Origin: an uncultured Alphaproteobacteria bacterium
GTDB taxonomy: Bacteria > Pseudomonadota > Alphaproteobacteria > UBA7985 > CAJQQZ01
Length of the DNA stretch: 64,000 nt
Assembly: GCA_905480575.1 (NCBI GenBank)
Contig: CAJQQZ010000020.1
Location: 1 to 64,000 of the forward strand
Direction: 5' to 3'
Part shown: positions 165 through 16,937 of the stretch, in pieces
Layout: every line of letters begins with the position of its first letter
Numbering within the stretch: position 1 is the first letter of the stretch
Notes under the pieces: model-generated
The model's input: the letters and a program-made list of their open reading frames with translations, nothing else
The model's database searches: none
What the model was told of the DNA's origin: nothing
Position numbers and translations under genes: made by a program

Positions 165-899
165 CTATTTTGCCAACTTCTTCGCTTGCCCAACCCAGTC
201 ATCTCTCTCGATTCTGTCGGGAAATGCCCCCAGCTGTCCGACCATCCACTCAACATCTTGGTTTGAAAAGCCCGCAATCTGAGCAAATTGATAGACACCG
301 TTGTCATTCAACAGTTTCTCGAAAACAGGGCCAATGCCATTTATCTCTTTCAAATCATCGACATTATTGGGGCGTTCACGAAAGAGATTTTCTGGCGCTG
401 GCAACTCCTTTGATTGTTCTGAGGCGTCTTCAACAGTCTTGATGCTTAAGGTCAGCGCCGCCTTAGCGGAGTTTGCTTCTTCACGCGCAATCGCTAGCTC
501 CTTCTCCAAATCTTCGCAACGGCTACAGCTTTCAGCTTCTAGACGGTTCTCACCTGACATCCACAACCACCAGGCAGAAAGAATACCAACACAAGCCCCT
601 ACCGACATCGGAACAATGTGGAGACTAGTCCCAAAAACAACAAAAGCAATTACAGCGATCGAGGACAGTGCGAGCAAGACAACCAACGGCCACTTGAACG
701 ACGGGTATGACCCACCTTTGGTTTGACTGATCGCCCAAGTGGCAACTACACCAACAAGACCAGCAGTTAGAAGGAAGAACCCAGGCAACACACCGCCAAA
801 TACCGACGACAACAAGATCGCTAAGGCCATTAAGAAGACAACAAGTGCTAAAGCGCGGTTACCGCGATCTGTTTTGACCTTTTTCGGCTCGGGGGTCAT
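165..899 (-). CDS. Four-helix membrane protein with C-terminal helix-hairpin-helix domain
   Basis: A 244-residue protein of unknown function. Residues 15-115 contain about four hydrophobic segments. Then come a CSRC cysteine pair (about 126-129), a short coiled coil (DLEKELAIAREEANSAK) and a linker. Residues 180-244 match the helix-hairpin-helix tail common in alphaproteobacteria, with the core INGIGP and the end ERDDWVGQAKKLA. That fold usually binds DNA or acts as a protein-interaction module, and would lie in the cytoplasm here. The gene follows the OmpA-like gene (928-2652) by 28 nt on the same strand. The protein resembles the product of 14560-15408 in layout and in the coiled-coil motif. 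The ATG at 899 has TTAGGAA about 11 nt upstream. Function is not known. Confidence 0.8.
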   Translation of the reverse strand: MTPEPKKVKTDRGNRALALVVFLMALAILLSSVFGGVLPGFFLLTAGLVGVVATWAISQTKGGSYPSFKWPLVVLLALSSIAVIAFVVFGTSLHIVPMSVGACVGILSAWWLWMSGENRLEAESCSRCEDLEKELAIAREEANSAKAALTLSIKTVEDASEQSKELPAPENLFRERPNNVDDLKEINGIGPVFEKLLNDNGVYQFAQIAGFSNQDVEWMVGQLGAFPDRIERDDWVGQAKKLAK

Positions 900-927
900 A
901 AGTATTAGTTTCCTAAGGTGTTGGATT

Positions 928-2652
928 TCAGAACTGAATGAATCTCAATTCAACTCTGCGGTTCTTGGCATAAGCGGCTGGATTGCGGCCTGGATCAATC
1001 GGGCGAAGTGCAGCCATACTGACAGCAGATAGTCTCTCCGCTGGAACACCTTCCTTGATGAGAATTCTGACCACGTTAGCGGCTCTAGCCCCGCCGAGAT
1101 GCCAGTTGGAAGGGTATCGGTTCGTAGAAATCGAGAGACGGTCTGTGTGTCCCTCAACGAACAAATTCCATTCGCTATCTTCACTCAGTTTGGATTTGAT
1201 TTTCTCTGCGACAGCTCGGATCGTTTTTCGACCCTTTTTCGAAACCGAAGCCGAGGCAGGATAGAAGAGAATTCCGTTGTCGAGAACCAGGCGACCTTCG
1301 TTCGACTTAACTGATTCAACGTCCTGTTCTATCTCGTCTACGAGACCCTTCAACTCATCCGAAGTTTTCTCATCTCCTGAATCCAATCCAGAAATGGTTG
1401 ACTGCAAAGATTGGAGTTGTTGGCCTAACTCTTTGTTTAAGCTTTGCAGCTCAGCCAGTTCGCCCTCAAAATCTTCATCAGGATTAGATGCCGCTGTTGG
1501 TTTGTCTGACGCCTCCATATTACTCTTGGCCAACAAGTTTCTTGTGGCCTCCAGCTCTAGTTTCAGAATCCTCAATTCATCCTCTGCGCCAGAAAATTTG
1601 ACTTTCGCCTGATCTAGTTCTCTTTGTAACTCTTCAATCTTCAGTTTTGAATCAGCGCTGTTCAAAGTGCCCGTCAGCGCCTCTATACTTTTCTCACTTG
1701 ATTGGAGGCGGCTGTTCAATTCGCCAATTTTAAGCAGCGACGCAGCCTTCTGCTCTTTGAGAAGCGCTACCAACTTTGATTCTGCGTCTAACTTCTCTTC
1801 AGCTTTTGAAAGTTCGACTTGCAACTTCGTGGCAGCGTCCGTCAGTTCCGCTACTTCCAGATTGTCAAAGTTCGCCGCTTTGAGTGCCTTCTCCACTTCG
1901 TTCTGTGCTGCAAGTTGTTGCTTGATTTCAGCGAGGGCTGTTTCTGTTTCTTTCAGTTTCTTCTTGGTTTCCTCTAGTTCACTTCGAAGATCCTTCAGCT
2001 TCTTCAATCCAGAGTTTTCACCCGTTTCGGCATTTTCTTCTTGAAGCTCAAGCTCTTTGAGTTCACTGAAATCAGAAGCAAGTTTCTTTCTCAGACCTGC
2101 TAATTGCACCACCAATTCGCTGTTTTTGTCACTCAGCATTTTTACTTTTTCAGCTGCTGCTGAATGCTGTTCTTCCGCTTTCGCTAGGTCGATCTGTAAC
2201 TGCGCAGATGCCTCGTTGAGGCCCTTAATTTCAAGGTCCTTAAGATCAATAGCACTCAATGACTCATCGTACCGCCCTTTCAGGACTGCGACTTGTTTGT
2301 TTAGTTTGATTTTGTCTTTAGATGATACTGCAACAGACTTCTGAAACGCCTGTAACTCGCTTCTTTGGCTAGCGAGTTGTTTTTCCATTTGGTCAATTTC
2401 TTGGACAACGGCTTCGCATTCAACTGCATCATTTAGTTTAAAAACACCGTCACCGCCTCCGGAGTTGTAGTCCCCTTTCATGAGGCGTTGAAACCAACCG
2501 AGCTCTTTTTCAGTATTGCAGTTTTCTCGAACTTGCTCAAAAGCAGTCAAAGCTTTATCGGCATTCGCTGAAAATGCAAAATGTCCGCCAACGAGAAAGG
2601 CGATAACCGCCGCAGCCGAGGCTAGTCTAATGGACCGATCCTTGCGCATCAT
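928..2652 (-). CDS. Periplasmic coiled-coil protein with C-terminal OmpA-like domain
   Basis: About 574 residues. An N-terminal hydrophobic segment acts as a signal or anchor. It is followed by a mini-domain with two cysteines (motif CNTEKELGWF, then VECEAV), about 330 residues of heptad-rich coiled coil, and an OmpA/MotB-type peptidoglycan-binding domain over the last 120 residues (EGHTDR, NWHLGGARA, NRRVELRF). The likely role is to link the inner membrane to the cell wall. The ATG at 2652 was chosen because GGGGGA lies about 10 nt upstream; an in-frame TTG at 2670 lacks this. It is the first gene of a pair with the membrane protein at 165-899. A paralogous pair lies at 14560-16937. The mini-domain and OmpA domain are clearly shared with 15423-16937; the partner is unknown. 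Confidence 0.85.
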   Translation of the reverse strand: MMRKDRSIRLASAAAVIAFLVGGHFAFSANADKALTAFEQVRENCNTEKELGWFQRLMKGDYNSGGGDGVFKLNDAVECEAVVQEIDQMEKQLASQRSELQAFQKSVAVSSKDKIKLNKQVAVLKGRYDESLSAIDLKDLEIKGLNEASAQLQIDLAKAEEQHSAAAEKVKMLSDKNSELVVQLAGLRKKLASDFSELKELELQEENAETGENSGLKKLKDLRSELEETKKKLKETETALAEIKQQLAAQNEVEKALKAANFDNLEVAELTDAATKLQVELSKAEEKLDAESKLVALLKEQKAASLLKIGELNSRLQSSEKSIEALTGTLNSADSKLKIEELQRELDQAKVKFSGAEDELRILKLELEATRNLLAKSNMEASDKPTAASNPDEDFEGELAELQSLNKELGQQLQSLQSTISGLDSGDEKTSDELKGLVDEIEQDVESVKSNEGRLVLDNGILFYPASASVSKKGRKTIRAVAEKIKSKLSEDSEWNLFVEGHTDRLSISTNRYPSNWHLGGARAANVVRILIKEGVPAERLSAVSMAALRPIDPGRNPAAYAKNRRVELRFIQF

Positions 2653-2941
2653 GAAATTGGAATCCCCCAACGAATCCTTTAGTACGCCAAGTAAAATTCA
2701 GGGCGCTTTTCCGATTCGTTGAAGCAAAACCCGATTCGTTTGTCAAGATTTACTTCTACATTTACTTTTTGATGGCAAGTAACGGACTCTATTACTTGCT
2801 AGTGATGCACTAATATCACAAATATTTGTCACTTCAACTTTGCTTGAGTAACACAACCCTCACGCCCTGTTGACTGGCGTGAAATTAATATCACCTCCAT
2901 AAACTGACACAACAATTCTCAGAAAATGAAGTGTTAGATCC

Positions 2942-3484
2942 GTGAAAAAATCAATCCTTCCGATCCTATTGGTGGCCTTATTTTGGCCAATCACAAGCAA
3001 CGCTGGCATCGTTGGTCAAAAAGCCCCTGCCTGGCAAATAGCGGAATGGCTCAATTCTGACGGCGGGACTGTCGCCGACCATAGGGGAAAGGTCGTTGTT
3101 ATCGATTTCTTTCAACTCTGGTGCCCTGGATGTAACAACTTCTCCATTCCATTGATGCACAAGTGGGAAAAACAATACGAGAATGAGGTCAAAAATGGGA
3201 CGCTCCTCTTTGTTTCCATCCACACCGTTTTCGAAGGCCACCAATACCAAACCCCAGAAATGCTTCGGAACTTCGTTAAGAACAAAGGCATCAAGCATCC
3301 AGTGGGAAATGACCAACAGGTTGAAGGGTATCACATCCCTTTGACAATGGTTAACTACCGCACACGTGGTACACCTGAAATCGCCATCATCGACAAACAA
3401 GGTATTGTACGGTTTCAAGACAACATCTTTGAACCGAGTTTAGGCGAGAGTATGATCAATCAACTCTTGGCGGAAGGCAGTTAG
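2942..3484 (+). CDS. Secreted thioredoxin-like (TlpA/redoxin family) protein
   Basis: A 180-residue protein with a signal peptide (residues 1-21, cleavage near SNA-G) and a thioredoxin fold. The active site is CPGC at residues 61-64, followed by the cis-proline region (GTPEIAIID, about 147-155). Such proteins reduce or exchange disulfides outside the cytoplasm. The start is GTG at 2942 because the signal peptide begins there; the ribosome binding site is weak. The copper amine oxidase gene starts 38 nt downstream on the same strand, so the two are probably co-transcribed. A role in redox or copper handling for the oxidase is only a guess, since that enzyme has no visible signal peptide. The 289-nt gap upstream holds the divergent promoters. 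Confidence 0.85.
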   Translation: MKKSILPILLVALFWPITSNAGIVGQKAPAWQIAEWLNSDGGTVADHRGKVVVIDFFQLWCPGCNNFSIPLMHKWEKQYENEVKNGTLLFVSIHTVFEGHQYQTPEMLRNFVKNKGIKHPVGNDQQVEGYHIPLTMVNYRTRGTPEIAIIDKQGIVRFQDNIFEPSLGESMINQLLAEGS

Positions 3485-3522
3485 GTCGCTAGTCTCGGAA
3501 AATCGTCTTTGAGAGGTTTTCC

Positions 3523-5403
3523 ATGGTCTACAATCCTGCGCTCGCCCCCTTAACAAGAGAAGAAATAGAAACTGTTGTATCGTTGGTTAAGTCACGGAGC
3601 TTGATTGACGACACAGGCTGGTTCGAGACGATAACACTTGATGAGCCGGAACCAGGGCCAACAAACAACGACCGTAACGCCTATGTTTGCTGTTACGAAC
3701 GCTCATCAAATACCACATTCCAAGGTCTCGTCTCGCTTTCGAAGAATTCTGTTGAGGAATGGAGAAATGTACCGGGTGTACAGGCCAGGATCGTCCCCGA
3801 TGAATTCACTTACGCGCAGGAAATCGCAAAGGCTGATCCAGACTTTCAAGCAGCCTGCGCCAAACGAGGCATTACAGATCTCTCCGACCTTCTCGTCGAG
3901 GCCTGGGCTGCCGGTAACTTTGGTGTCGAAGAAGAAGAAGGCGAGCGCATCGCTTTCGGCCACTGTTGGCTGCAAAATGATGCAGGCGACAATCCCTATG
4001 GTCGCCCTGTGGCAAACCTTCATCCTGTCGTGGATCTAAGACGTGGCAAACTGATCAGGATTGATGACTATGGCGTCGTGCCAATTCCTCCCGATACAAA
4101 GTCGATTTCCAAACAAACAACCGCCCGCCAAGACCTCAAAGAACTAAACATCATTCAACCGGATGGCCCAAGCTTCGAAGTCGACGGTCAGGAAGTGCGG
4201 TGGCAGAAGTGGCACGTCCAGGTTGGCTTCGATTTACGTGAAGGGCTGGTTCTCCATAACATCGGCTATGAGGATCAAGGAACCCTGCGTCCGATCATGC
4301 GCCGCGCTTCTATGGCAGAGATGGTTGTGCCTTACGGTGACCCGACGGGGGGCAATTTTCGCCGAAATGCCTTCGATACGGGGGAGTACGGCATAGGCCA
4401 GGCTACGAGCCCTTTAACTCTTGGCTGTGATTGTCTAGGTCACATTTACTATTTTGATCTCTGGTCTCATGATTGGAATGGGGAGCCTGTTTTTGTCAAA
4501 AATGCTGTTTGTATGCACGAAGAAGACTACGGCATGCTTTGGAAGTACACCGACCCTAGGCGCGATCAATCATCAGTGACCCGGTCACGCCGTCTGGTGA
4601 TTTCTTCAGTCGCAACCATCGGGAACTACATCTATGGTTTCTTCTGGTACTTCTATCAAGACGGCACAATTGGCACAGAAGTCAAAGCTACAGGCGTGCC
4701 TTTGCCATCGGCCATCGAACAAGGCAGGACACCGGAATATGGCACACTAGTAGCACCAGGTATTGATTCACACATCCACCAACACGTTTTTTCTTTCCGC
4801 TTTGACATGGCGGTCGATGGAACGAAGAACTCTCTCGCAGAAATGAATTTTGAAGCGGTACCCTGGGATGACAAGAATCCTCATGGCAACGCTATCCTAA
4901 CGAAGCAAACGATTTTCGAAACAGAACAGGAAGCGCAGAGAGAAATGAACTTGCCTTCGGCGCGTTACTGGAAGGTCATCAACGAAAATAAACTCAATGG
5001 CTTGGGGCAACCGACAGGCTACAAGCTCGTTCCTGGCACAAATGCCCTCCCGTTTTTGCATCCCGACTCACCCGTTGGAAAACGGGCCGGTTTCATGTTT
5101 AAACACCTTTGGTGCACACCTTATGAAAAGAATGAACGCTTTCCAGCAGGTTGGTTCCCTAACCAGCACGCCGGTGGAGATGGCTTGCCGAGTTGGACAG
5201 AAGCCAACAGATCAATCAGAAACGAGGACATCGTTGTTTGGTACACAATGAACTATCATCACTTGCCTCGCCCCGAGGACTGGCCTGTCCAGCCCACCGT
5301 CTATGCTGGTTTCCATTGGATGCCTTTCGGTTTCTTTGATGAAAACCCAGCGATGGACGTGCCCGTCAGTGGTGGCCATGCTGCAAGCGTTTGTTGCGAG
5401 TAG
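3523..5403 (+). CDS. Primary-amine oxidase (copper amine oxidase, TPQ enzyme)
   Basis: A 626-residue member of the copper amine oxidase family, which turns primary amines into aldehydes with release of ammonia and hydrogen peroxide. The catalytic base is Asp285 in FDTGEYGIG. The topaquinone tyrosine is Tyr369 in TIGNYIY. The copper ligands are His419 and His421 (HQHVFSF) and His580 (HHLPRPEDW). Length is typical. One oddity is that the residue after the cofactor tyrosine is Ile, where the family usually has Asp or Glu. No signal peptide is seen, so it is probably cytoplasmic. It follows the thioredoxin-like gene and ends 12 nt before the convergent MFS gene. The substrate cannot be told from sequence. 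Confidence 0.95.
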   Translation: MVYNPALAPLTREEIETVVSLVKSRSLIDDTGWFETITLDEPEPGPTNNDRNAYVCCYERSSNTTFQGLVSLSKNSVEEWRNVPGVQARIVPDEFTYAQEIAKADPDFQAACAKRGITDLSDLLVEAWAAGNFGVEEEEGERIAFGHCWLQNDAGDNPYGRPVANLHPVVDLRRGKLIRIDDYGVVPIPPDTKSISKQTTARQDLKELNIIQPDGPSFEVDGQEVRWQKWHVQVGFDLREGLVLHNIGYEDQGTLRPIMRRASMAEMVVPYGDPTGGNFRRNAFDTGEYGIGQATSPLTLGCDCLGHIYYFDLWSHDWNGEPVFVKNAVCMHEEDYGMLWKYTDPRRDQSSVTRSRRLVISSVATIGNYIYGFFWYFYQDGTIGTEVKATGVPLPSAIEQGRTPEYGTLVAPGIDSHIHQHVFSFRFDMAVDGTKNSLAEMNFEAVPWDDKNPHGNAILTKQTIFETEQEAQREMNLPSARYWKVINENKLNGLGQPTGYKLVPGTNALPFLHPDSPVGKRAGFMFKHLWCTPYEKNERFPAGWFPNQHAGGDGLPSWTEANRSIRNEDIVVWYTMNYHHLPRPEDWPVQPTVYAGFHWMPFGFFDENPAMDVPVSGGHAASVCCE

Positions 5404-5415
5404 AATTCGACATCA

Positions 5416-6615
5416 CTATTCCGCTGGCTGCCCCACTGGGTAGTTAGGGCCGAACTGGGTCTCGTTACCTGGTTCCGGGTGTCTAGGGACGTTCAAGGAT
5501 AGTATCAAAGAGAACGCCGCCATCCCAGCGCCGGTTAGGAAGACTGCAGCTGGAGAGACCATCCAAACTGCACCCAGTAAGAAGGGTAAGAACACCGCAG
5601 CTATGTGATTGATTGTAAAAGCAACTGAAGCCGTGGAGGCCATGTCCGCTGGGTCACCGATTTTTTGGAAGTAGGTTTGTTGCGCTATGGCCATCGCAAA
5701 GAACAAGTGATCGATGACAAATAGAGCGGCTGCCACTTCATGTCTTTCAACAAAGGCATAGGCATAAAAAACAAAGAACAATCCGACGTACTCGATGATC
5801 AGGGCATTGCGCTCGCCCCACCTGGCAATCATTTTTCCTACTACTGGAGCAATAAAGAAATTGAGGGCAGACGCAGCTAAAAACAGAATGACAATATCGT
5901 CGACGCCATAGTCGAATTTCGTGACCATCAGGAAGCCGGCAAAAACGATGAAAATCTGCCTTCGGGCGCCCGCCATGAAAGTTAGAGCGTAATAGAGCCA
6001 GTAGCGCTTTCGGAGAACAATGGTTTTTCGTTGTGTCACGGCTTGCGGGAACATCGGAAAACCGATCCAACAGTAAGCCGCAATAGCAATCAAAACACAG
6101 CCGCCAATAGCATAAGAAACTTCAACCGATAACCCGACAATCGAAATCCAAAGCCAGACAGAGACGAAGGCAACAATTTCACAAAGTGACTTGAACGAGA
6201 TGATTTTACCCATGAACTGCGGCGCTTCACCTTTGGGCAACCACTGCCAAGTCAGCGACTTGTTCACAGCTTCATAGTAGTGAAAACCAATCGACATCAA
6301 AACCGTTGTGAAGTACAGCCCAACGTGGCTAGGCAAGTAGCCGGTTAAAGCAATCCCCAGTCCCATCACCCCAATCGCGACAAGAGCAAAAATTTGCTCC
6401 TTTATGATCAGCAGCAAAAACACCGCCGTGAATGCCAAGAAGCCGGGAATCTCACGCACTGACTGGACACCACCTATATCCAGGCCATTGAACCCAACCT
6501 CACGAACCGAAAAATTGTCCAACAACACCCGCCAGACAGCAAAGCCAAAAGACATTCCGACAGCAAGAAGTAACAGGAAGAGACGCGGATCGCGTAATTT
6601 TTGGTTAAGTGACAT
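5416..6615 (-). CDS. MFS transporter
   Basis: About 399 residues with roughly twelve hydrophobic segments in two halves, typical of the major facilitator superfamily in the inner membrane. The central loop carries basic residues (TQRKTIVLRKRYWLYY) as usual. The substrate is unknown. The ATG at 6615 was preferred to a TTG at 6630, although neither has a strong ribosome binding site. The gene converges on the amine oxidase with a 12-nt gap and diverges from the FMN reductase at 6748, with a 132-nt promoter gap. No dedicated regulator is next to it. Confidence 0.85.
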   Translation of the reverse strand: MSLNQKLRDPRLFLLLLAVGMSFGFAVWRVLLDNFSVREVGFNGLDIGGVQSVREIPGFLAFTAVFLLLIIKEQIFALVAIGVMGLGIALTGYLPSHVGLYFTTVLMSIGFHYYEAVNKSLTWQWLPKGEAPQFMGKIISFKSLCEIVAFVSVWLWISIVGLSVEVSYAIGGCVLIAIAAYCWIGFPMFPQAVTQRKTIVLRKRYWLYYALTFMAGARRQIFIVFAGFLMVTKFDYGVDDIVILFLAASALNFFIAPVVGKMIARWGERNALIIEYVGLFFVFYAYAFVERHEVAAALFVIDHLFFAMAIAQQTYFQKIGDPADMASTASVAFTINHIAAVFLPFLLGAVWMVSPAAVFLTGAGMAAFSLILSLNVPRHPEPGNETQFGPNYPVGQPAE

Positions 6616-6747
6616 TTGTTTGACTAACAACGGGAAGAACAGAATAACAATCCGCTCGGTCTAACACAGTTTGTTTCGCTTGCATCTGCAAAAGAACTCG
6701 ACCAGATATAGTCCCCGTACAACTAGGACGTTGCGAAAGGTTATCCA

Positions 6748-7323
6748 GTGTCAAATGTGAAGGTTTTGGTGTTTTCTGGCTCGATTAGAAAAGGGTCATT
6801 CAACAAACAACTGGCGGCAGTCGCTGCTCAATCGGCGGGCGCAGAGGCCGAAGTCACCTTGCTTGATCTCGCAGATTTCCCAATGCCGATTTATGACGGC
6901 GATCTGGAAGCGGCTGAGGGCCTCCCCACTAACGCAAAGAAACTGCGCCGTCTGTTTGACGAACACGACGCCTTTATTATTGCTTCTCCTGAATACAACG
7001 GGTTTTTCAGCCCGCTTTTGAAGAACACACTCGATTGGGTTTCCAGGTCAGACGCCGACGAACCAGACCTTGTACCCTACAAAGGAAAAGTGGCCGCCCT
7101 ATTAGCCGCATCCCCAGGTGGCCTTGGTGGCTTGCGGGCACTTCCCTCTCTTCGCCAACTCCTTTCCGGGATCGGCGTTTTGGTCATTCCGGATCAGCTC
7201 GCGATTGGTGGTGCCATGTCTGTGTTTGATGGTGAAGGACAGTTAAAGGATGACAGCTGGCAACCAAAAATAGACGGCGTTGTGGAAGCCCTCATGAAGA
7301 CCGCATCAGCGCTCAAGTCATAA
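6748..7323 (+). CDS. NADPH-dependent FMN reductase family protein
   Basis: A 191-residue flavodoxin-fold protein. The phosphate-binding loop GSIRKGSFNK is at residues 11-20 and the family signature SPEYNGFFSPLLKN at about 79-92. Members reduce FMN, quinones or chromate with NAD(P)H in the cytoplasm. The start is GTG at 6748, with GAAAGG 7 nt upstream. Its stop codon overlaps the next start (TAATG), so it is translationally coupled to the IMPACT-family gene. The true substrate is not predictable. Confidence 0.9.
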   Translation: MSNVKVLVFSGSIRKGSFNKQLAAVAAQSAGAEAEVTLLDLADFPMPIYDGDLEAAEGLPTNAKKLRRLFDEHDAFIIASPEYNGFFSPLLKNTLDWVSRSDADEPDLVPYKGKVAALLAASPGGLGGLRALPSLRQLLSGIGVLVIPDQLAIGGAMSVFDGEGQLKDDSWQPKIDGVVEALMKTASALKS

Positions 7324-7712
7324 TGCCAAAAACTTGGCCGCAATACTTGCTCTTAGAACAGGTTATATCCGACCGAGGGTCGCGATATTCTGTTGGCCTG
7401 GGAGCAGTGACATGCCAGGAAGATGTTAAGGCGCTGCTAAAGACGCACACAACCAAGAAGAAGTACCGTACCGCTACCCATAATACTTGGGCAGCAAGAA
7501 TTACCGCAGACAATGGTGTCGAAGAATTAAAATCTGACGACGGCGAAAGTGGCGCTGGTGGTGTCATACTAAATGTGTTGGAAGGTGAAAAAGCCGTGGA
7601 TGTGGCCGTGATTGTTACCCGCTGGTATGGCGGCAAACATCTTGGCCCTGATCGCTTCAGACATGTTAAAAACGCGACCCATATGGTGCTGAAGGAAGTA
7701 TCTCATGGATAA
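7323..7712 (+). CDS. IMPACT/YigZ family protein
   Basis: A 129-residue protein matching the N-terminal domain of the YigZ/IMPACT (UPF0029) family, with the signatures SDDGESGAGG and TRWYGGKHLGPDRFRH. It is shorter than typical bacterial YigZ (about 200 residues) and lacks the second, ferredoxin-like domain. The family is linked to translation control, but the bacterial function is poorly defined. It overlaps the FMN reductase stop by one base and overlaps galE by 8 nt, so the three genes are one transcription unit. Confidence 0.85.
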   Translation: MPKTWPQYLLLEQVISDRGSRYSVGLGAVTCQEDVKALLKTHTTKKKYRTATHNTWAARITADNGVEELKSDDGESGAGGVILNVLEGEKAVDVAVIVTRWYGGKHLGPDRFRHVKNATHMVLKEVSHG

Positions 7713-8679: not shown

Positions 8680-8701
8680 ATTCAAACTCTCGGGACAGAA
8701 C

Positions 8702-9682
8702 ATGAGCCTCCAACCTTTGGTCACTTGCGCCATCCCTGTTTACAATGGGGCTGCTTTTCTGGCCGAAGCCATCCAGTCAATATTAGACCAGACCTATACA
8801 AACATCGAATTGATCATCATCAATGATGGTTCATCCGATGAGAGTTTGGCGATTGCTCAGTCTTTCCAGTCGCGACATCCCGAGATCACCGTTATCGATC
8901 AAGAAAACAAAGGTTTGATCGGAACGTTAAACCACAGCTTGGAACTAGCGAATGGCCTCTACTACGCGAGGATGGATGCAGACGACATAGCGCTGCCCAC
9001 ACGGTTCGAAAAACAGGTAGATTTTTTACAATACAACCCAGGTCATGCGGCGGTTGGCTCAGGTTTCATTTTGATCGACCAAAATGGAACGAAAGCTGCC
9101 ACACCGAACCTCCCTATTACTGATCAGGTCGATCTAAGTCTCTATCCTCCAATGATAGCAACCTTACCGCATCCAACGACAATGATGAGGGTTGACGCTC
9201 TGAAAAAGACTGGTGGCTATCGTCCTTTTTTCAAACATGCGGAAGACCGAGATCTGTGGGCAAGGTTGCAAGAAGAAGGTCGGTTGGAAATCCTGCGAGA
9301 ACCTCTCTTGCTCTATCGCAAACACGGTGAAAACATCACTGTTAAGCACAACCCGATTCAACAAATCAACGGGCTATTAGCCGACATTTCAGCTGTAGTT
9401 CGATCACTCGGTTTGGATGACAAACCTGTGCTTGAAGCCTATCTTAGTCACAAAGACTGGCGCCGTGCATTGAACGAATTCGCGGCTGTCTTGGACGGCA
9501 AAAGAGACGTTCATTACATGCGAGACCTTTACTTCGTTCACCGACGCGCCTGGGACGCAACCAGCGCCGGAAGTAAGTTCGGCTGCCTGACAAAATACCT
9601 TCTCAAAGGGCAACTATCTATGGCAGCCTTCATCCTGAGAAAATGGTTTGGAAAAACTAAATCTTACAAAGATGCTGCTTAA
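8702..9682 (+). CDS. Family 2 glycosyltransferase
   Basis: A 326-residue GT-A fold glycosyltransferase. The N-terminal region has VTCAIPVYNGAAFLAEAIQS (residues 7-26), a nucleotide-binding NDGSSD motif, and the metal-binding RMDADD at about residues 91-96. A later EDRDLWARL segment is typical of the acceptor side. It probably adds a sugar to a cell-surface glycan in the cytoplasm. No membrane segments are evident. It is the last gene of the galE unit and abuts the convergent quinone oxidoreductase gene at 9683 with no gap. Confidence 0.9.
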   Translation: MSLQPLVTCAIPVYNGAAFLAEAIQSILDQTYTNIELIIINDGSSDESLAIAQSFQSRHPEITVIDQENKGLIGTLNHSLELANGLYYARMDADDIALPTRFEKQVDFLQYNPGHAAVGSGFILIDQNGTKAATPNLPITDQVDLSLYPPMIATLPHPTTMMRVDALKKTGGYRPFFKHAEDRDLWARLQEEGRLEILREPLLLYRKHGENITVKHNPIQQINGLLADISAVVRSLGLDDKPVLEAYLSHKDWRRALNEFAAVLDGKRDVHYMRDLYFVHRRAWDATSAGSKFGCLTKYLLKGQLSMAAFILRKWFGKTKSYKDAA

Positions 9683-10669
9683 CTAAACAGCGAGCAACAC
9701 CTTGCCTTTAGTCTCACGGGCTTGCAACGCGCGGTGGGCATCGGCTGCTTCAGCCAAAGGATACGTCCTGTCGTGCCGTAACTTGAGATCCCCTTTCCGG
9801 TAAAGCTCAAACAGATCGTTGGCTCTCGCCCGTCTTTGTTCCAGGTTCGGAATGTAATCTGCCAAATGAGGACGCGTGAAGAAGATCGAACCTGCTTCCG
9901 CGATATCAAGCGGATTGATCGAGTGAACAGCCCCAGAACTCGCACCGTAATTACACAAAGTGCCTCTGCGTGCCGTGGATTTCATCGATCCTTCGATGGT
10001 CGCAATCCCGACGGAGTCATAAACCGCGTTACAGCCTTTCCCTTTTGTTATCTCGGCGACCCGTTCCGCAAAATCTTCCTGTGTATAGATGATGACATGA
10101 TCAGCGCCGAGTGAACGCGAAATTTCAGCTTTTTCTACTGACCCAACTGTCGAGATCACCTCAGCGCCCTTGGCTTTCGCCAGCTGTGTCATGATCTGTC
10201 CGACACCGCCAGCGCCTGCATGGATCAATGCTCTTTCACCGGGCTGCAGAGCATGCAACGAATGGGTCATGTAGTGTGCGGTTGACCCTTGCAACATGAG
10301 CGTAGTCGCCATTTCCAAAGGCACATCATCGGGAACTGGAACAAGTTTCCAAGCTGGCACTACGGCATATTCAGCGTAGCTGCCTAGGTGCAGGCAATAG
10401 GCCACTGTTTGACCGACATAAACTTCCGTGACGCCTTCACCTAGAGCCTCAACGACACCAGCCCCCTCCATGCCGATCACCATCGGTGGATTTTGTGCAT
10501 AGGTGTGTGAGTTTTTATACAGGCCTGAGCGCATATAAACGTCGATGAAATTCAATCCAGCATAGGAAATCTTGACCAGTGCTTCACCAGGACCAGGCAT
10601 AGGTTTATCCGTCTCACCAAAACGCATATTTTCAGGCCCGCCGTAAGCGTCAACTAGGATTGCTTTCAT
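9683..10669 (-). CDS. NADPH:quinone oxidoreductase (zinc-independent MDR family)
   Basis: A 328-residue medium-chain dehydrogenase/reductase. The GroES-like half covers about residues 1-120. The Rossmann half has the loop HAGAGGVGQIMTQLAKAKGA (about 150-169). No zinc-ligand cysteines are present, in line with the quinone oxidoreductase branch. It would reduce quinones or enones with NADPH. Its ATG overlaps the stop codon of the upstream acyl-CoA dehydrogenase (ATGA), so the two are coupled. The in vivo substrate is unknown. Confidence 0.9.
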   Translation of the reverse strand: MKAILVDAYGGPENMRFGETDKPMPGPGEALVKISYAGLNFIDVYMRSGLYKNSHTYAQNPPMVIGMEGAGVVEALGEGVTEVYVGQTVAYCLHLGSYAEYAVVPAWKLVPVPDDVPLEMATTLMLQGSTAHYMTHSLHALQPGERALIHAGAGGVGQIMTQLAKAKGAEVISTVGSVEKAEISRSLGADHVIIYTQEDFAERVAEITKGKGCNAVYDSVGIATIEGSMKSTARRGTLCNYGASSGAVHSINPLDIAEAGSIFFTRPHLADYIPNLEQRRARANDLFELYRKGDLKLRHDRTYPLAEAADAHRALQARETKGKVLLAV

Positions 10670-11832
10670 GCCAATGCTTCCATTTCTTTCATTAATTCGC
10701 GTGCGATGATAACACGCTGCACTTCACTCGTGCCTTCATAGATCGTCGTAATCCTAACATCTCGAGCGTATCTCTCAAGCGGATTGTCTCTGATGTATCC
10801 AGCACCACCCATTAACTGAAGTGCTGTATAACAAGCTCTGTTTGCAGCCTCGGTCGAGAACAGTTTCGCCATTGACGCAGCCTTAGCATAGGGGCGTCCT
10901 TCTTGTTTCAACTGTGCCGCTTGCAATGTTAGCAGTTTCCCTGCCTCCAATTCCGTGTAAGTATCGGCAATCATCCATTGAATGCCTTGGAAATCGGCTA
11001 CTTTCACGCCGAATTGCTCCCGTTCTCTCACGAAAGCAACCGCCGTCGCCATGGCTGCTTGGGCTATCCCTAAAGCTAAACCGGCAACGTTGATCCTGCC
11101 ACCGGTCAGCTCTTTCATAGCGATTTTGAAACCTTGATTCTCTTCGCCTAACATGGCGGATGCTGGGATTTTGCAGTCTTGGAAAACAATTTCGTTGGTT
11201 GCCGAGCCGCTCTGCCCCATCTTGCTTTCAGCTTTTCCAATTGTGATACCTGGCGTATCTGGATCAACAAGGAACAGCGAAACTCCCCTGCCTTTAGGAG
11301 CATCGGGATCAGTCACAGCCCAAACCACCAACACTCCGGCATACTCCCCTGAGGTGATGTAAAGTTTAGATCCGTTCAAGAGCCAACCATTGCCATGTCT
11401 TTCAGCTTTAGTCTTCATGGCCGCAGGATCAGAACCCGCGCCGCTTTCGGTTAAGCAAAAGGAGCCCGCAGCAAAAGTACCATCCGCCAATTTAGGCAAG
11501 TAGTTTTCCTTCTGCTCCTTACTGCCAATCGCCTGGATTACTTCGCCGACCAGGTTTGTGACAGACATTGTAACGGCCGTCGAAGCACAGGTCTTCGCAA
11601 CTTCCTGTATCGCCAGCGCACAGGCTGTCGCTCCCGCTTCACTTCCCCCATAGTCACTGGACACATTGAGCCCCATGTAGCCTAGTTCCGCCAGTCCTTT
11701 AAGGCCTGTCAGAAACTCCGCTCTACCTTCCCCTCGATCCAAGGCCTCGACATTAGCGCTCAATCGATCCGTCGCGTATCGACTGGCCGTCTCGACAATG
11801 GCGGCCTCTTCAGAGGTAAGATCAAAGTCCAT
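10666..11832 (-). CDS. Acyl-CoA dehydrogenase
   Basis: A 388-residue flavoprotein that introduces a double bond into acyl-CoA thioesters. Signatures are CLTESGAGSDPAAMKTKA, the FAD-side segment SGEYAGV, and the catalytic glutamate in TIYEGTSEVQR near the C terminus. The start is set at the ATG at 11832 because AAAGGA lies 7 nt upstream; an upstream extension to 11886 is in frame but has no such site. It overlaps the quinone oxidoreductase start by 4 nt. The chain-length class is unclear, although the sequence looks short- or branched-chain-like. Confidence 0.93.
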   Translation of the reverse strand: MDFDLTSEEAAIVETASRYATDRLSANVEALDRGEGRAEFLTGLKGLAELGYMGLNVSSDYGGSEAGATACALAIQEVAKTCASTAVTMSVTNLVGEVIQAIGSKEQKENYLPKLADGTFAAGSFCLTESGAGSDPAAMKTKAERHGNGWLLNGSKLYITSGEYAGVLVVWAVTDPDAPKGRGVSLFLVDPDTPGITIGKAESKMGQSGSATNEIVFQDCKIPASAMLGEENQGFKIAMKELTGGRINVAGLALGIAQAAMATAVAFVREREQFGVKVADFQGIQWMIADTYTELEAGKLLTLQAAQLKQEGRPYAKAASMAKLFSTEAANRACYTALQLMGGAGYIRDNPLERYARDVRITTIYEGTSEVQRVIIARELMKEMEALA

Positions 11833-11971
11833 AGCGATTTCCTTTAGTTGACAGGATAGAAAGAGTTCACGCTCGCAAGCTAGCAAAACTTTTGCTTACT
11901 AGAAAGATTGCCTCTAAGCTATTTTGGCCCATCTTCTGCTCCAAGAGCAACTTTTCTCGAAAGAACCTTTC

Positions 11972-12868
11972 ATGACAGCAAGCAAGTCGGCGGCGACCGA
12001 CCAAAGGCCTTTGATCGCGGCTGGGTTTATGGTCATTTCGACCATCGGATTTGTTGCTATGCACGTCATCATTCAGAGGGTTTCTCAAGACCTCCATCCG
12101 TTTGTTACCGCCTTCTTTCGCTGCATGTTTGGTATTTTGGTGGTGCTCCCTTGGTTCATGAAGAGTGGCTTAGAACCGCTTCGCACTTCAAAACCTGGAC
12201 TGCTGCTGCTGAGAGCATTCGTAAACACCCTGGCGATGATGATGTTCTTTTGGGCGCTAGCGATAACGCCCTTGATGACAACCACCGCCTTGGCCTTCAC
12301 CTCCCCAATCATGGCGACCGTAATGGCCATATTCTTTTTTGGTGAACGATTGGGACCGCGCCGTATAGGTGCCGTTGTTGTGGGCTCTGTCGGTGTCCTG
12401 ATAATCCTAAGACCTGGTCTGATCCCGCTAGAATTAGGCCCCCTCCTGCTTCTTGTCTCCTGCTTCCTTTGGGCTGTTACAGTCTTGATTGTTAAAATCA
12501 TCAGCAAAACAGAGAGCAGCGTGACAATCACGGCCTATATGACCCTGATGATGGCACCAATGACCTTCGTCTTTGCTCTGCCTTTCTGGCAGACACCAAC
12601 CCTAGAACAGCTTCTTTGGCTGGCTTTAGGTGGCAGCCTTGGAACAATTGGTCACCTAACTATGACCCAAGCTTTGAAAGTCGCTGACACAGCTACAGTA
12701 ATGCCTTTGGACTTCCTAAAACTTGTTTGGTCAGCGGTGTTTTCTTATGCATTGTTTCTCACCATTCCAGATTTCTGGACACAGGTCGGTGGTGTTGTTA
12801 TTTGTGCAGCTTCGGCCTATTTGGCTTATCGTTCCCACAGGGAACTGAGACCTTCGATCAAGGTATAG
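11972..12868 (+). CDS. EamA/DMT family transporter
   Basis: A 298-residue inner-membrane protein with about ten hydrophobic helices in two EamA repeats. Typical features are ALAFTSPIMATVMAIFFFGE and RRIGAVVVGSVGVLIILRPG at the end of the first repeat. It resembles the product of 28686-29600 over its length (both have a TIGHxTMT segment), so the two are paralogues. The ATG at 11972 was chosen because it directly precedes the conserved region. The substrate is unknown. The aminotransferase gene begins 13 nt downstream, so co-transcription is likely. Confidence 0.85.
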   Translation: MTASKSAATDQRPLIAAGFMVISTIGFVAMHVIIQRVSQDLHPFVTAFFRCMFGILVVLPWFMKSGLEPLRTSKPGLLLLRAFVNTLAMMMFFWALAITPLMTTTALAFTSPIMATVMAIFFFGERLGPRRIGAVVVGSVGVLIILRPGLIPLELGPLLLLVSCFLWAVTVLIVKIISKTESSVTITAYMTLMMAPMTFVFALPFWQTPTLEQLLWLALGGSLGTIGHLTMTQALKVADTATVMPLDFLKLVWSAVFSYALFLTIPDFWTQVGGVVICAASAYLAYRSHRELRPSIKV

Positions 12869-12881
12869 AAGAGAGACAAGA

Positions 12882-13799
12882 ATGGCCAAACAAGGCACCC
12901 ACGATTACATCGACGATCCGCGCAACGCGTCAATCAAAATCTATGTTTCAGGCGAGCTTTTGCCGCGCGAAAAGGCCATGGTCTCGGTTTTTGATTCAGG
13001 CTTCATTCTGGGCGATGGCATTTGGGAAGGGCTGCGGCTCCACCATGGCAAGATAGCTTTTCTGGAAGCACACTTAGATCGCATGTACGAAGGTGCACTC
13101 TCTCTTGATCTGGACATTGGCCTCACGCGCCAAGAAATGACAGATGCGATTTATGAAACAGTTGAGGCCAACGGCATGGAGAACCATGTCCATATCCGCC
13201 TTATGGTGACACGAGGATTGAAGGCCACGCCTTACCAAGATCCAAGGATGACCATTGGTGCGGCAACTGTTGTCATCATCCCAGAATACAAGAACCCGAT
13301 CCCAGCGACGGTCGAAAGAGGAATATCTCTATTTACTGTCCATGTCCGCAGAACCTCTCCCGATATGCAGGATCAAAAGTGGAATTCCCATTCTAAACTG
13401 AACTGTATTTCTGCCTGCATTCAGGCCGCCAAAGCTGGCGCAGATGAAGCCTTGATGCTTGACCCTCAGGGGTTCGTTGCGACCTGTAACTCGACGCACT
13501 TCTTCATTGTTAGAAAGGGTGAAGTTTGGACTTCCAGCGGCGACTATTGTCTTGGCGGCATCACAAGATCAAACATCATCAAACTCTGTGAAGACAATGG
13601 CATCCCTGTCTTTCAGAAGAACTTTTCGCTGACAGATGTTTACGGCGCGGAAGAAGCTTTTGTCACTGGCACCTTCGCCGGAATTTGCCCTGTTACGACA
13701 GTTGATGGGCGACAGGTGGACAAAGCTGACCGTGCCGTTATTAAGAAACTGCAATCGCTATATAAAGAAATGATTGATCGGGAGTGTCCAAAGGGATGA
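12882..13799 (+). CDS. Class IV (fold-type IV) PLP aminotransferase-like protein
   Basis: A 305-residue protein of the branched-chain/D-amino-acid aminotransferase fold. Residues 35-55 (SVFDSGFILGDGIWEGLRL) and the probable PLP lysine Lys172 (SKLNC) fit the family. The usual glutamate that contacts the PLP ring nitrogen, normally in a V-x-E-x-x-x-x-N-I-F context, is replaced by Thr201 (VATCNSTHFF). Activity may therefore differ from a normal IlvE. AGAGAGACAAG precedes the ATG. The stop overlaps the start of the sulfotransferase-like gene (ATGA). The reaction cannot be assigned. Confidence 0.85.
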   Translation: MAKQGTHDYIDDPRNASIKIYVSGELLPREKAMVSVFDSGFILGDGIWEGLRLHHGKIAFLEAHLDRMYEGALSLDLDIGLTRQEMTDAIYETVEANGMENHVHIRLMVTRGLKATPYQDPRMTIGAATVVIIPEYKNPIPATVERGISLFTVHVRRTSPDMQDQKWNSHSKLNCISACIQAAKAGADEALMLDPQGFVATCNSTHFFIVRKGEVWTSSGDYCLGGITRSNIIKLCEDNGIPVFQKNFSLTDVYGAEEAFVTGTFAGICPVTTVDGRQVDKADRAVIKKLQSLYKEMIDRECPKG

Positions 13800-14551
13800 G
13801 CAGAAACGGTTCTGAATGCACCCGGATCGCAATGTGGTCCGGTCCACGCAACATCTCAACCGCAATGATGCGTTCATTTGAGAACCGTTCTGATACCATC
13901 GTCGTCGATGAGCCATTCTATGCCTATTACTTGGCTCGTACTGGCATCATGCATCCCATGAACGAAGAAATACTAGCTTCACAATCAAACGACTGGCAGC
14001 AAGTCGTGAAGGAAATTACCGGCCCAACCTTCGAAGATAGCCCAGTGTTTTATCAGAAGCAAATGACCCATCATTTACTGGAAGAAGTCGATAGAGGATG
14101 GATGAAGGAGTGTTTCAGCGCTTTTTTGATTCGTGACCCCAGAGCAATCATTGCCTCCTACTCCGCAAAGCGAGATAGTGTAACACTGGAAGACATTGGC
14201 ATCATTCAGCAGGCTGAGATCTTCGATTATGTTTGTGACCAACTGGGCGAAGCCCCGCCAGTGTTGGAAGCCAATGACGTGCTGGCCAATCCGGAATCTG
14301 TATTATCTCAGCTGTGTGAGAAGGCAGGCATTTCTTTCCAAGATGCTATGGTCCAATGGCCTAAAGGAAGACGGGAAAGCGACGGTGTTTGGGCCGATCA
14401 CTGGTACCATTCGGTCGAAGGCTCGACGGGCTTCAGTGCTCCCAGAGCGGCACCGACTAAACTTGAAGAGTCAGACCTGGAAAAGCTCGCTGAACTTTCC
14501 TGGCCAGCATACGAGCGAATGGCAAAGTATCGCCTGCGCCCTGAGGCTTAA
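13796..14551 (+). CDS. P-loop sulfotransferase-like protein
   Basis: About 251 residues. The N-terminal WSGPRNISTAMMRSF (residues 14-28) matches the 5'-phosphosulfate-binding loop of sulfotransferases. RDPRAIIASYSAKRDS (about 110-125) matches the 3'-phosphate motif. The ATG at 13796 overlaps the previous stop by 4 nt, and GGAG lies 11 nt upstream. Homologous domains occur fused to class IV aminotransferases in larger proteins from plants and other eukaryotes, so the pair probably works together. The acceptor is unknown, and true sulfotransferase activity is not shown. Confidence 0.75.
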   Translation: MSRNGSECTRIAMWSGPRNISTAMMRSFENRSDTIVVDEPFYAYYLARTGIMHPMNEEILASQSNDWQQVVKEITGPTFEDSPVFYQKQMTHHLLEEVDRGWMKECFSAFLIRDPRAIIASYSAKRDSVTLEDIGIIQQAEIFDYVCDQLGEAPPVLEANDVLANPESVLSQLCEKAGISFQDAMVQWPKGRRESDGVWADHWYHSVEGSTGFSAPRAAPTKLEESDLEKLAELSWPAYERMAKYRLRPEA

Positions 14552-14559
14552 AACTTCGA

Positions 14560-15408
14560 TTACTTCGAAGTCTCAACGATCCAGTCAACGATGTTGTCTT
14601 CTACAACCTCACCACTTCGCAGGTCAGTCAGCTTTTGAATTCTGTCGGCTCTGTAAGTCCAGCAAGAAATCTGGCTTTTAGAGAAGGTATCAAGGTTCAA
14701 AACACCTGACCGCTCTACAATGGCGTAAACCGCGATTTCTTTCTCGGAAACCTTACCTTTGAGATCTTTGTAGGTGATTTGGAAACGACGGGCCAATCCT
14801 CCGGACAAGAGCTTGCCACCGACTAAGTCATCTGCTTGTGCTTTTTGCTTCTCGTCATCCTGGTCATCTACCTCAGCAGTTTCGGCTTCTGAGACTTGGC
14901 TTTTGTTACCAGATGCAATTTCCTGCTCTAGCTCGTTGTAAGCGCGCTGCCATCGAACTGCGTTGGCATATGCGTCTGACGCTTCTTCTCGTGCCTGAGC
15001 CAGGTCTTTGCGCATATCGCCGATATTGCTACCGCCTACATCAGAAGTCGTTAGGCTTCGGCCCACTAGAATCCAAATAGAACAAATTAAAGATACACAA
15101 GTTCCAACGAGAATTGCGATCGAACTTAGCCCCACCCCAATGGGAATTAGGACAATACCAACGGTCGCCATCAAGAACAGACAACCGCCTAACAACCGCC
15201 TGATCAGATGGCCGCCTGAACGGTTCGTCGTTTGCCATACAGCAATAGATGAAAACAGGGCGACGACGCACGCGCTCAACACAAAGAGAACCGGCATAGG
15301 TTGCTCGAAGAGCACAAAGGCTGCGACGGCTAGAGTAGTCACCAGCAACAGAAGCCCCAATGGGCGGCTGCCAACCGTAGAACGCTGAATTTGAACTTCT
15401 TCGGACAC
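14560..15408 (-). CDS. Four-helix membrane protein with C-terminal WYL-like domain
   Basis: A 282-residue protein with about four hydrophobic helices (residues 16-115), a coiled coil with DLAQAREEASDAY, an acidic linker, and a C-terminal domain of about 75 residues. That domain has the pattern ITYKDLKGKVSEKEI, then WTYRADRIQKL, then LRSGEVVEDN. This resembles WYL-type ligand-binding domains, but the match is by eye only. It has the same layout and coiled-coil motif (AREEA) as the product of 165-899, which carries a helix-hairpin-helix tail instead. The start is GTG at 15408 with AGGCG upstream. It lies 14 nt behind the OmpA-like gene. Function is unknown. Confidence 0.75.
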   Translation of the reverse strand: MSEEVQIQRSTVGSRPLGLLLLVTTLAVAAFVLFEQPMPVLFVLSACVVALFSSIAVWQTTNRSGGHLIRRLLGGCLFLMATVGIVLIPIGVGLSSIAILVGTCVSLICSIWILVGRSLTTSDVGGSNIGDMRKDLAQAREEASDAYANAVRWQRAYNELEQEIASGNKSQVSEAETAEVDDQDDEKQKAQADDLVGGKLLSGGLARRFQITYKDLKGKVSEKEIAVYAIVERSGVLNLDTFSKSQISCWTYRADRIQKLTDLRSGEVVEDNIVDWIVETSK

Positions 15409-15422
15409 CTGTTGTCGCCTAC

Positions 15423-16937
15423 TTAATTCTTGTAATCAGAGAGCCTAAGCTCAATGCGTCTGTTTATGGCCTTAGCCTTACTCGTATCTCGTTTGTCTCT
15501 CGGCTGGAATTCTGCAAATGAGACAGCAGATAAGTTATGAGACTTAATCCCGTTTGAGACGAGCGCTCGGACAACCGCAATCGACCGGCCAGACGCCAAA
15601 TACCAGTTTGAAGGGTATTGCTCATTCGAAATCGGATCACTATCTGTGTGACCATCAATTTGCAGGACCCAATCCTTTTTGCCCTTCATGACTTTCTTAA
15701 TCACCCCGGCCAAGACATGAAGAACGGCTTTGCCGTCATCTGACAACTCGGCGGAGCCTTTCTCAAACAAGACTCTGTTACCCAGAACCGCTCGACCTTC
15801 AACTAAGTTGACGTCACGGGAAATATCATCAAGTTCCTTCATCAACTTGCCGTGCAATTCGCTCTGAAATTCTGAAGCTGAGCCTTGAGTGGTTGCGCTT
15901 GTGGCTTTTGCTGGCGGTAGTGATGCGGCTTGAGCAAGCTGCGTTTGCAGTGTTTCGATCTGACCTCTCAATTGCATATTATGAGAACTTGCTGCCTCCA
16001 ATGCGCCTCTAGCCTGACCTTCTATCATCGTAAGTCTAGCGGTTTCGGCCTCTGCCGCCTTCAAATCCAACTCAAGCGATAACTTGGCTCTTCGAACTGT
16101 TTCCAGCTCTAACATCATTTGCTGATCAGGATTCTTCTCCTGCTGCTTACGTAGAGACCCTTGCAGTTCATCTGCTTTGGTTTGAAACCGGTTAACCAAG
16201 TTCTTCGCTTTGACAAGATCTGCTTTCGCTCTCTCAAGCTCTACATCACGGTCTGACAAACTGCCTTTAAGAGAAAGAAGCTGGTTCTTGAGCTGACTCA
16301 ATTCTTCGTTTCCTGCTCCCGCCGCTTTATCGTTGTCTGAAATCGAAGCCAGCAATTCTGCGCGCGCTTCCCGTAAAGCCGCTATTTCAGACTTCAGTTT
16401 TTGGTTTTGTTCTTCAATCCGCTGATAGCGTTGTTGTTCTTCGCTGTTGTTTACTGCGGCCGTTTGGCCAGTGTTATCGCCCGCCGACAGGGCCGCAACG
16501 CGTTGCCTCAAGCGTTTGATCGTTTCCAATGAACGCTTCGCGTCTGCCGCTGCGCTAGAGCCCGCATTGGCTAAATCCGCCTCGAGAGCTACCTGTTTCC
16601 CCTTCAGCTGTTCTAGATCTTTCGCTCTCTCATCCAGCTGTCCCTTTAACGTAGCCTGTCGACGTTGGAGTTCCAAAACAACTGGGAACAAACGCCCGCA
16701 ATCTTGAGAACCTTCTGTTTCATAGCTATTGCCTAGCCCTCGGGATCTATAAGAATTCTCAACCAGTGAATCGAGCCAAGTCTTTTGCCCCTGATTACAA
16801 GAGGCAATCAGATCAGAGAGTTCATTATCGCTCATACGCGATTGAGCAATGCCCGTGTTGACCGAAGCCAAGAAAAGCAAACACCCCAGCGCATAGCCAG
16901 CTGTTTTAAAAACCGTCAACTTGAGTTTTATCTTCAT
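15423..16937 (-). CDS. Periplasmic coiled-coil protein with C-terminal OmpA-like domain
   Basis: A 504-residue paralogue of 928-2652. It has a signal peptide (about residues 1-31), a mini-domain with two cysteines (SCNQGQKTWLDSL and SQDCGRLF), about 250 residues of coiled coil, and an OmpA/MotB-type domain over the last 125 residues (DGHTDSDPIS, NWYLASGRS, NRRIELRL). It should bind peptidoglycan and span the periplasm. It is the first gene of a pair with the membrane protein at 14560-15408. The ATG at 16937 is clear. The 185 nt upstream are shared with the divergent dehydratase gene. Confidence 0.85.
   Translation of the reverse strand: MKIKLKLTVFKTAGYALGCLLFLASVNTGIAQSRMSDNELSDLIASCNQGQKTWLDSLVENSYRSRGLGNSYETEGSQDCGRLFPVVLELQRRQATLKGQLDERAKDLEQLKGKQVALEADLANAGSSAAADAKRSLETIKRLRQRVAALSAGDNTGQTAAVNNSEEQQRYQRIEEQNQKLKSEIAALREARAELLASISDNDKAAGAGNEELSQLKNQLLSLKGSLSDRDVELERAKADLVKAKNLVNRFQTKADELQGSLRKQQEKNPDQQMMLELETVRRAKLSLELDLKAAEAETARLTMIEGQARGALEAASSHNMQLRGQIETLQTQLAQAASLPPAKATSATTQGSASEFQSELHGKLMKELDDISRDVNLVEGRAVLGNRVLFEKGSAELSDDGKAVLHVLAGVIKKVMKGKKDWVLQIDGHTDSDPISNEQYPSNWYLASGRSIAVVRALVSNGIKSHNLSAVSFAEFQPRDKRDTSKAKAINRRIELRLSDYKN

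Follow-up and report, generated by a model that had tools for sequence, protein, structure and literature searches.

Paired genes for an OmpA-domain protein and a membrane protein with a predicted cytoplasmic HhH or WYL domain in an uncultured alphaproteobacterium

Genes and protein layout

The stretch of DNA analyzed here (64,000 nucleotides of an uncultured Alphaproteobacteria bacterium, hereafter the window) contains two pairs of genes, both on the minus strand, in which a gene for an OmpA-domain protein is followed by one for a membrane protein. The first pair is represented by P2 (928–2652, 574 aa; ORF, Pfam and NCBIfam matches, same-genus orthologue) and P1 (165–899, 244 aa; ORF, AlphaFold2), a four-helix membrane protein with a predicted cytoplasmic coiled coil and an HhH domain. 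The second comprises P4 (15423–16937, 504 aa; ORF, Pfam and NCBIfam matches, homologues) and P3 (14560–15408, 282 aa; ORF, AlphaFold2), a four-helix membrane protein with a predicted cytoplasmic coiled coil and a WYL domain, whose start codon is GTG. The gap between the genes is 28 bp from P2 to P1 and 14 bp from P4 to P3. The original prediction, made from the sequence of the window, described the same gene order, orientation and protein layout for both pairs, and the four ORFs, all on the minus strand with the OmpA gene first, confirm it. The start of the window is the end of the contig, and the region downstream of P1 is therefore cut off. At 18033–19799 the window also encodes a single protein that carries a phosphotransferase (APH) domain together with a peptidase M23 domain.

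P2 and P4 share a signal segment, a two-cysteine mini-domain, a long coiled coil and an OmpA domain, as had been proposed. The putative signal segments were read from the sequence and cover aa 1–31 in both P2 (2560–2652, ending in SANA) and P4 (16845–16937); in P2 the hydrophobic stretch spans residues 10–28. Next lies the mini-domain, delimited by the cysteine positions in an alignment of six homologues (C45–C79 of P2, 2416–2520; C47–C80 of P4, 16698–16799); the two cysteines and a conserved Tyr are common to all six of the aligned OmpA homologues. A coiled-coil spacer follows (1315–2415 in P2, with SMC-type and other coiled-coil matches; 15828–16685 in P4, with coiled-coil matches) and leads to a MotB-type OmpA domain (937–1314 in P2, with GHTD and LGGARA residues; 15438–15818 in P4), assigned by Pfam, NCBIfam and an OmpA tree and alignment. 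Matches to Pfam OmpA (PF00691) have E-values of 6e-14 for P2 and 1.5e-14 for P4 (52.6 and 54.6 bits against a cut-off of 27.2), and those to the NCBIfam model PRK09039, 'peptidoglycan-binding protein', have values of 2e-32 and 5e-39, both below the family cut-off. In OmpA, diaminopimelate is held by the Asp of GHTD and the Arg of LSxxRA, and the OmpA-domain alignment shows both residues in P2 and P4. As judged from sequence, P2 and P4 are coiled-coil proteins with an export signal and an OmpA domain of the peptidoglycan-binding type.

The membrane partners were described originally as proteins of about four helices followed by a coiled coil, and the AlphaFold2 models (mean pLDDT 83 for P1 and 57 for P3, the latter model being poor overall) agree with this. 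The helices occupy aa 11–121 of P1 (537–869) and aa 16–120 of P3 (15049–15363) and are homologous between the two proteins; the coiled coils occupy aa 126–161 (417–524) and aa 128–172 (14893–15027), respectively. The AREEA motif noted at the outset occurs in both proteins, within the coiled coil in the case of P1, but it is absent from the same-genus orthologue, and was rejected as a mark of the family because orthologues lack it. Basic residues are located at the N-terminus and around the loop between helices 2 and 3 of P1 and P3, a charge distribution that predicts an inside C-terminus and would place the coiled coil, like the HhH or WYL domain, on the cytoplasmic side. Periplasmic loops are almost absent from both proteins, so that any contact with a partner would have to be intramembrane. 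What the first description of these proteins overlooked is that their cytoplasmic domains are distinct, HhH in P1 versus WYL in P3, and this difference is their most informative feature.

The HhH and WYL domains and the origin of the two pairs

The HhH domain of P1 comprises 65 residues (aa 180–244, 168–362; NCBIfam, HHH_5, AlphaFold2) and matches, in NCBIfam models, the C-terminal tails of alphaproteobacterial NuoE (1e-24), L21 (4e-17), S2 (4e-13) and the phasin PhaH (1e-11). The HHH_5 model recognizes 15 of 20 members of this HhH family, with a best value of 2.7e-7, and P1 itself at only 0.088. In the family alignment the Gly-x-Gly of the hairpin is invariant, and the AlphaFold2 model of P1 presents the domain as short helices (block pLDDT 88–98, mostly 95–98). 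A fold search with P1 returned matches at chance level only, mostly TRPV channels, and the assignment of the HhH fold is therefore based on sequence profiles. The same domain forms a C-terminal tail on the ribosomal proteins L21, L27, S2 and S1, on NuoE, on a phasin and on an ABC ATPase (loci L110, L039, L133, L141, L045, L125, and L037); by eye, it is also present on the L19 protein of locus L188 and on a protein resembling PHB depolymerase at L191. The source genome also encodes, on contig C113, a tandem of membrane-HhH genes (L036, 5855–6772 and 7139–8005) which are relatives of P1 and have no OmpA neighbour.

A known parallel to P1 is protein-O of Dinoroseobacter shibae, a subunit of the RC-LH1 complex whose HhH domain is unresolved in the structure (PDB 8yy9, PMC12079452). 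Like P1, protein-O combines membrane helices with a linker and carries this HhH domain at its C-terminus (3.5e-25); unlike that of P1, its gene is located next to nuoE and not next to an OmpA gene, and the homology established between the two proteins lies in the HhH domain. Its presence in RC-LH1 indicates that HhH proteins anchored in the membrane can be genuine subunits of a complex.

The WYL (Sm-fold) domain of P3 (aa 205–264, 14617–14796) was assigned by Pfam, orthologues and Foldseek. P3 itself remains under the Pfam WYL (PF13280) cut-off (0.0088; 16.5 bits against 21.8), and three orthologues exceed it (9e-6 to 4e-5, 24.1–26.0 bits). Best Foldseek matches of the P3 model are PafBC, BrxR, CapW and DriD (leading probability 1.00, best E 2e-3). 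The modeled barrel is Sm-like, with five strands at 207–262 and block pLDDT values mostly of 78–88 that dip to about 61–64 near residues 201–210 and 241–250. Two arginines, R253-x-x-R256 (14641–14652), are located in the beta4/beta5 loop according to the AlphaFold2 strands and the alignment. Binding of ssDNA by PafBC depends on two arginines in this loop of its WYL domain (PMC11804915, PMC6789036); R253 and R256 were equated with this pair by strand position and spacing only. The R-x-x-R is invariant in paired P3 orthologues and lost in an unpaired paralogue of the source genome (contig C95, L014 5323–5895), which has two helices, a WYL domain like that of P3 and no OmpA neighbour. The Tyr of the WYL triplet is missing in P3, where the corresponding strand reads LNL, and there is no WCX domain. 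P3 thus resembles PafBC, BrxR, CapW and DriD in the WYL Sm-fold with an R-x-x-R loop and differs from them in being a membrane protein with no recognized HTH or WCX, whereas they are soluble transcription factors.

The two pairs were presented originally as a duplicated module, and homology was found on both sides. In a whole-genome search with P1, the sole non-HhH protein found at E ≤ 0.001 was P3 (2e-10), and the search with P3, up to E = 10, returned P1 (1e-10), one WYL-bearing relative and one match at E 0.68. Alignment of the N-terminal parts of P1 and P3 gave z = 9.4 relative to class-preserving shuffles, with separate compositions for membrane and non-membrane positions. In the OmpA-domain tree P2 and P4 are sisters with a support of 88/85, and the next to join are the partners of WYL-type proteins from the same order (81/72), both values being below the starred level of the program. 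These relationships show, at the level of sequence and prediction, that the module was duplicated within the lineage and that the cytoplasmic domain was exchanged. Given the position of the WYL-type partners next to P2 and P4 in the tree, the WYL-type module probably came first, and the HhH domain of P1 would be a later replacement. Homology between the helices of P3 and the two helices of its counterparts in family f2 was unsupported (z = -0.4), so that it is the WYL domain, together with the OmpA partner, that relates P3 to these proteins.

Occurrence of the pairs in other genomes

A search for co-occurrence, a check proposed with the original prediction, found the pairing and the mini-domain intact elsewhere: P2/P1 in a genome of the same genus (G001) and the P4/P3 type in three genomes from a second family of that order (G002, G006, and G010). 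In G001 the proteins are 52% (P2) and 54% (P1) identical to those of the window and their genes have the same order, strand and close spacing; a P4/P3 pair was not found in this genome, which is about 84% complete. About 150 bp after the G001 pair (L038, 8718–10310), on the same strand, there is a gene for an L,D-transpeptidase (YkuD, 1e-14). In G002, G006, and G010 a P4-like gene is followed on the same strand by a gene for a two-helix coiled-coil WYL protein. In a third family (G003, G005, and G007) an OmpA protein of roughly 940 residues, BON-like in G005 (the one tested of the three), precedes a one-helix coiled-coil HhH protein.

Outside the genus, the four-helix domain was sought among 372 genomes of the class; strong matches occur only in the source genome, with weak matches in five others. 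The WYL-type module gave, across the class, three weak matches only beyond the source genome and G002; with respect to named genomes it is found in three metagenome-assembled genomes only.

The distribution of HhH genes was surveyed by profile searches of class and phylum samples, which added 80 neighbourhoods; in these and the earlier loci, 104 HhH genes were classified by script. Within Alphaproteobacteria, 19 of 40 membrane-anchored HhH genes (those with a predicted membrane helix ahead of the HhH) are located directly downstream of an OmpA-domain gene on the same strand, whereas none of 57 soluble HhH fusions (NuoE, L21, S2, L27, ABC ATPase, phasin, S1) adjoins one. The corresponding Fisher test (p = 2e-9) is descriptive only, since profile score guided the choice of loci, joined in the second round by hand-picking after the pattern had been seen, related genomes were counted separately, and seven HhH genes outside both classes (with no helix and not recognized as fusions; none of them adjacent) were left out. 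A first pass on a smaller set gave 11/26 versus 0/35 (p = 2e-5); between passes the HhH profile was changed and the permitted overlap with the OmpA frame was widened from 400 to 700 bases.

The 19 OmpA/HhH pairs, among which the window pair is not counted, span seven family codes (f1, f3, f15, f73, f83, f148, and f179). Several of their OmpA partners carry BON domains and have no long coiled-coil spacer, and the OmpA domains of these HhH-type partners lack the MotB-type insertion, which points to repeated origins of the layout or to an exchange of its parts. Pairs of this kind, often with a BON-OmpA protein (e.g., L046, L109, and L132), share with P2/P1 the gene order, the OmpA end, the membrane anchor and the HhH end; they differ from it in the absence of a long spacer and in the type of OmpA domain (a weak split in the tree), and their membrane helices have no demonstrated relation to those of P1. 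Two genomes, G192 and G557 (L109, L124, L195, and L196), each contain two different OmpA/HhH pairs, indicating that multiple copies of the module per genome recur.

A possible wall-to-cytoplasm tether and its alternatives

The two genes of each pair are co-inherited, and our tentative preference is for a function as a tether from the cell wall to the cytoplasm that would display an exchangeable HhH or WYL domain to a cytoplasmic client. The architecture is well supported; we infer the formation of a complex and the target bound by the domain. The first gene would provide an exported coiled-coil protein with its OmpA domain on peptidoglycan, and the second an inner-membrane protein whose coiled coil and HhH or WYL end point into the cytoplasm. 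The two proteins may then associate, with the membrane partner held in place by the wall-bound one and the client docked at the wall by HhH or WYL. Since both domains have folds of a nucleic-acid type and the R-x-x-R is kept in P3, nucleic acid or a nucleic-acid-bearing machine is favoured as the client; a protein is the main alternative and nearly as likely, and protein docking would explain equally well why ribosomal proteins, NuoE and phasins bear the HhH tail. Several observations speak against the tether: P1 and P3 have almost no periplasmic loops, roughly half of the membrane-anchored HhH genes have no OmpA gene next to them (the C113 tandem is an example), the related protein-O is part of RC-LH1, and the WYL domain of P3 is devoid of the triplet Tyr and of WCX. 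A more specific version, in which the HhH or WYL domain of a dedicated alphaproteobacterial wall tether would attach the nucleoid, ssDNA or ribosomes to the wall, is unlikely.

Pairs of an OmpA-domain and a membrane protein are of a known kind, and it is the non-MotA partner with an HhH or WYL domain that was not found described. The suggestion of an undescribed envelope-spanning complex holds as far as a conserved two-gene envelope module is concerned, for which no description was found in the open-access literature searched, most subscription papers lying outside that search. The best-known pairs of such a layout are ion-driven stators, which the window pairs are not; the latter are predicted to expose domains of a nucleic-acid type on the cytoplasmic side. 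Should the partners associate, they would physically connect the cell wall with the cytoplasm in a way not yet described for this large class of bacteria, and the widespread and unexplained HhH tail that ribosomal proteins, complex I and phasins of Alphaproteobacteria carry would gain a testable setting.

A real possibility, if a somewhat doubtful one, is that the pairs form a structural brace between peptidoglycan and the inner membrane, or a complex-assembly factor, with HhH and WYL as protein-docking modules that have no role related to nucleic acids. The proteins bearing the HhH tail (NuoE, L21, L27, S2, S1, and phasins) could all share a protein partner, subunits of RC-LH1 and of complex I are among its carriers, and the L,D-transpeptidase gene after the G001 pair also counts in favour of this reading. 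The invariant Gly-x-Gly of HhH and the retention of R-x-x-R in paired WYL copies argue against this explanation, both being expected for nucleic-acid binding without proving it.

It is improbable that the pairs are sensors of the envelope state, in which wall strain, relayed by the membrane protein, frees or buries HhH or WYL and so alters gene expression or repair: WYL is a ligand-sensing module in regulators such as PafBC and DriD, but P1 and P3 have neither a DNA-binding HTH nor an enzymatic output domain in Pfam or NCBIfam.

That the genes are independent chance neighbours with no shared function is very unlikely. OmpA-domain genes are numerous and unpaired paralogues of both P3 (C95) and P1 (C113) exist; however, order, strand and close spacing are kept within the genus, the arrangement is also found in the order and, with different parts, in seven families, and it is absent from the 57 control genes.

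Least probable of all, and rejected here, is a stator powered by ions, as in MotAB, TolQR, ExbBD or ZorAB, whose A subunit has diverged, a reading to which the gene pairing reminiscent of MotAB and the MotB-type OmpA domains of P2 and P4 (PRK09039, MotD, and ZorB models) lend some appeal but which is contradicted by the absence of A-subunit homology, of an Asp in the N-terminal hydrophobic segment of P2 and P4, and of acidic residues in the helix cores of P1 and P3. In agreement with the earlier impression that the membrane proteins do not look like MotA, P1 and P3 match no MotA, ExbB, TolQ or ZorA model in Pfam, NCBIfam or PADLOC. A stator-like MotA/OmpA pair of the source genome (C180; L012, 5166–8808) served as positive control; its A protein matches both the Pfam MotA-type model (0.0055, weak) and ZorA (7e-15, clear), and its B protein has the membrane Asp (WPGFVDALATLLLVV). 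This PRK09039-type pair with a MotA/TolQ-type partner resembles the window pairs in being a two-gene unit in which a long coiled coil leads to a MotB-type OmpA domain, and differs from them in the MotA-like partner, in the membrane Asp and in that P2 and P4 score below the PRK09039 cut-off. ZorAB and MotAB likewise combine an OmpA-domain protein and a membrane partner in one operon, whereas the window pairs have no ZorA or MotA homology and no membrane Asp. Zorya was also rejected as an identification, as P2 and P4 match ZorB models via the shared OmpA domain only, and the C180 B protein does likewise.
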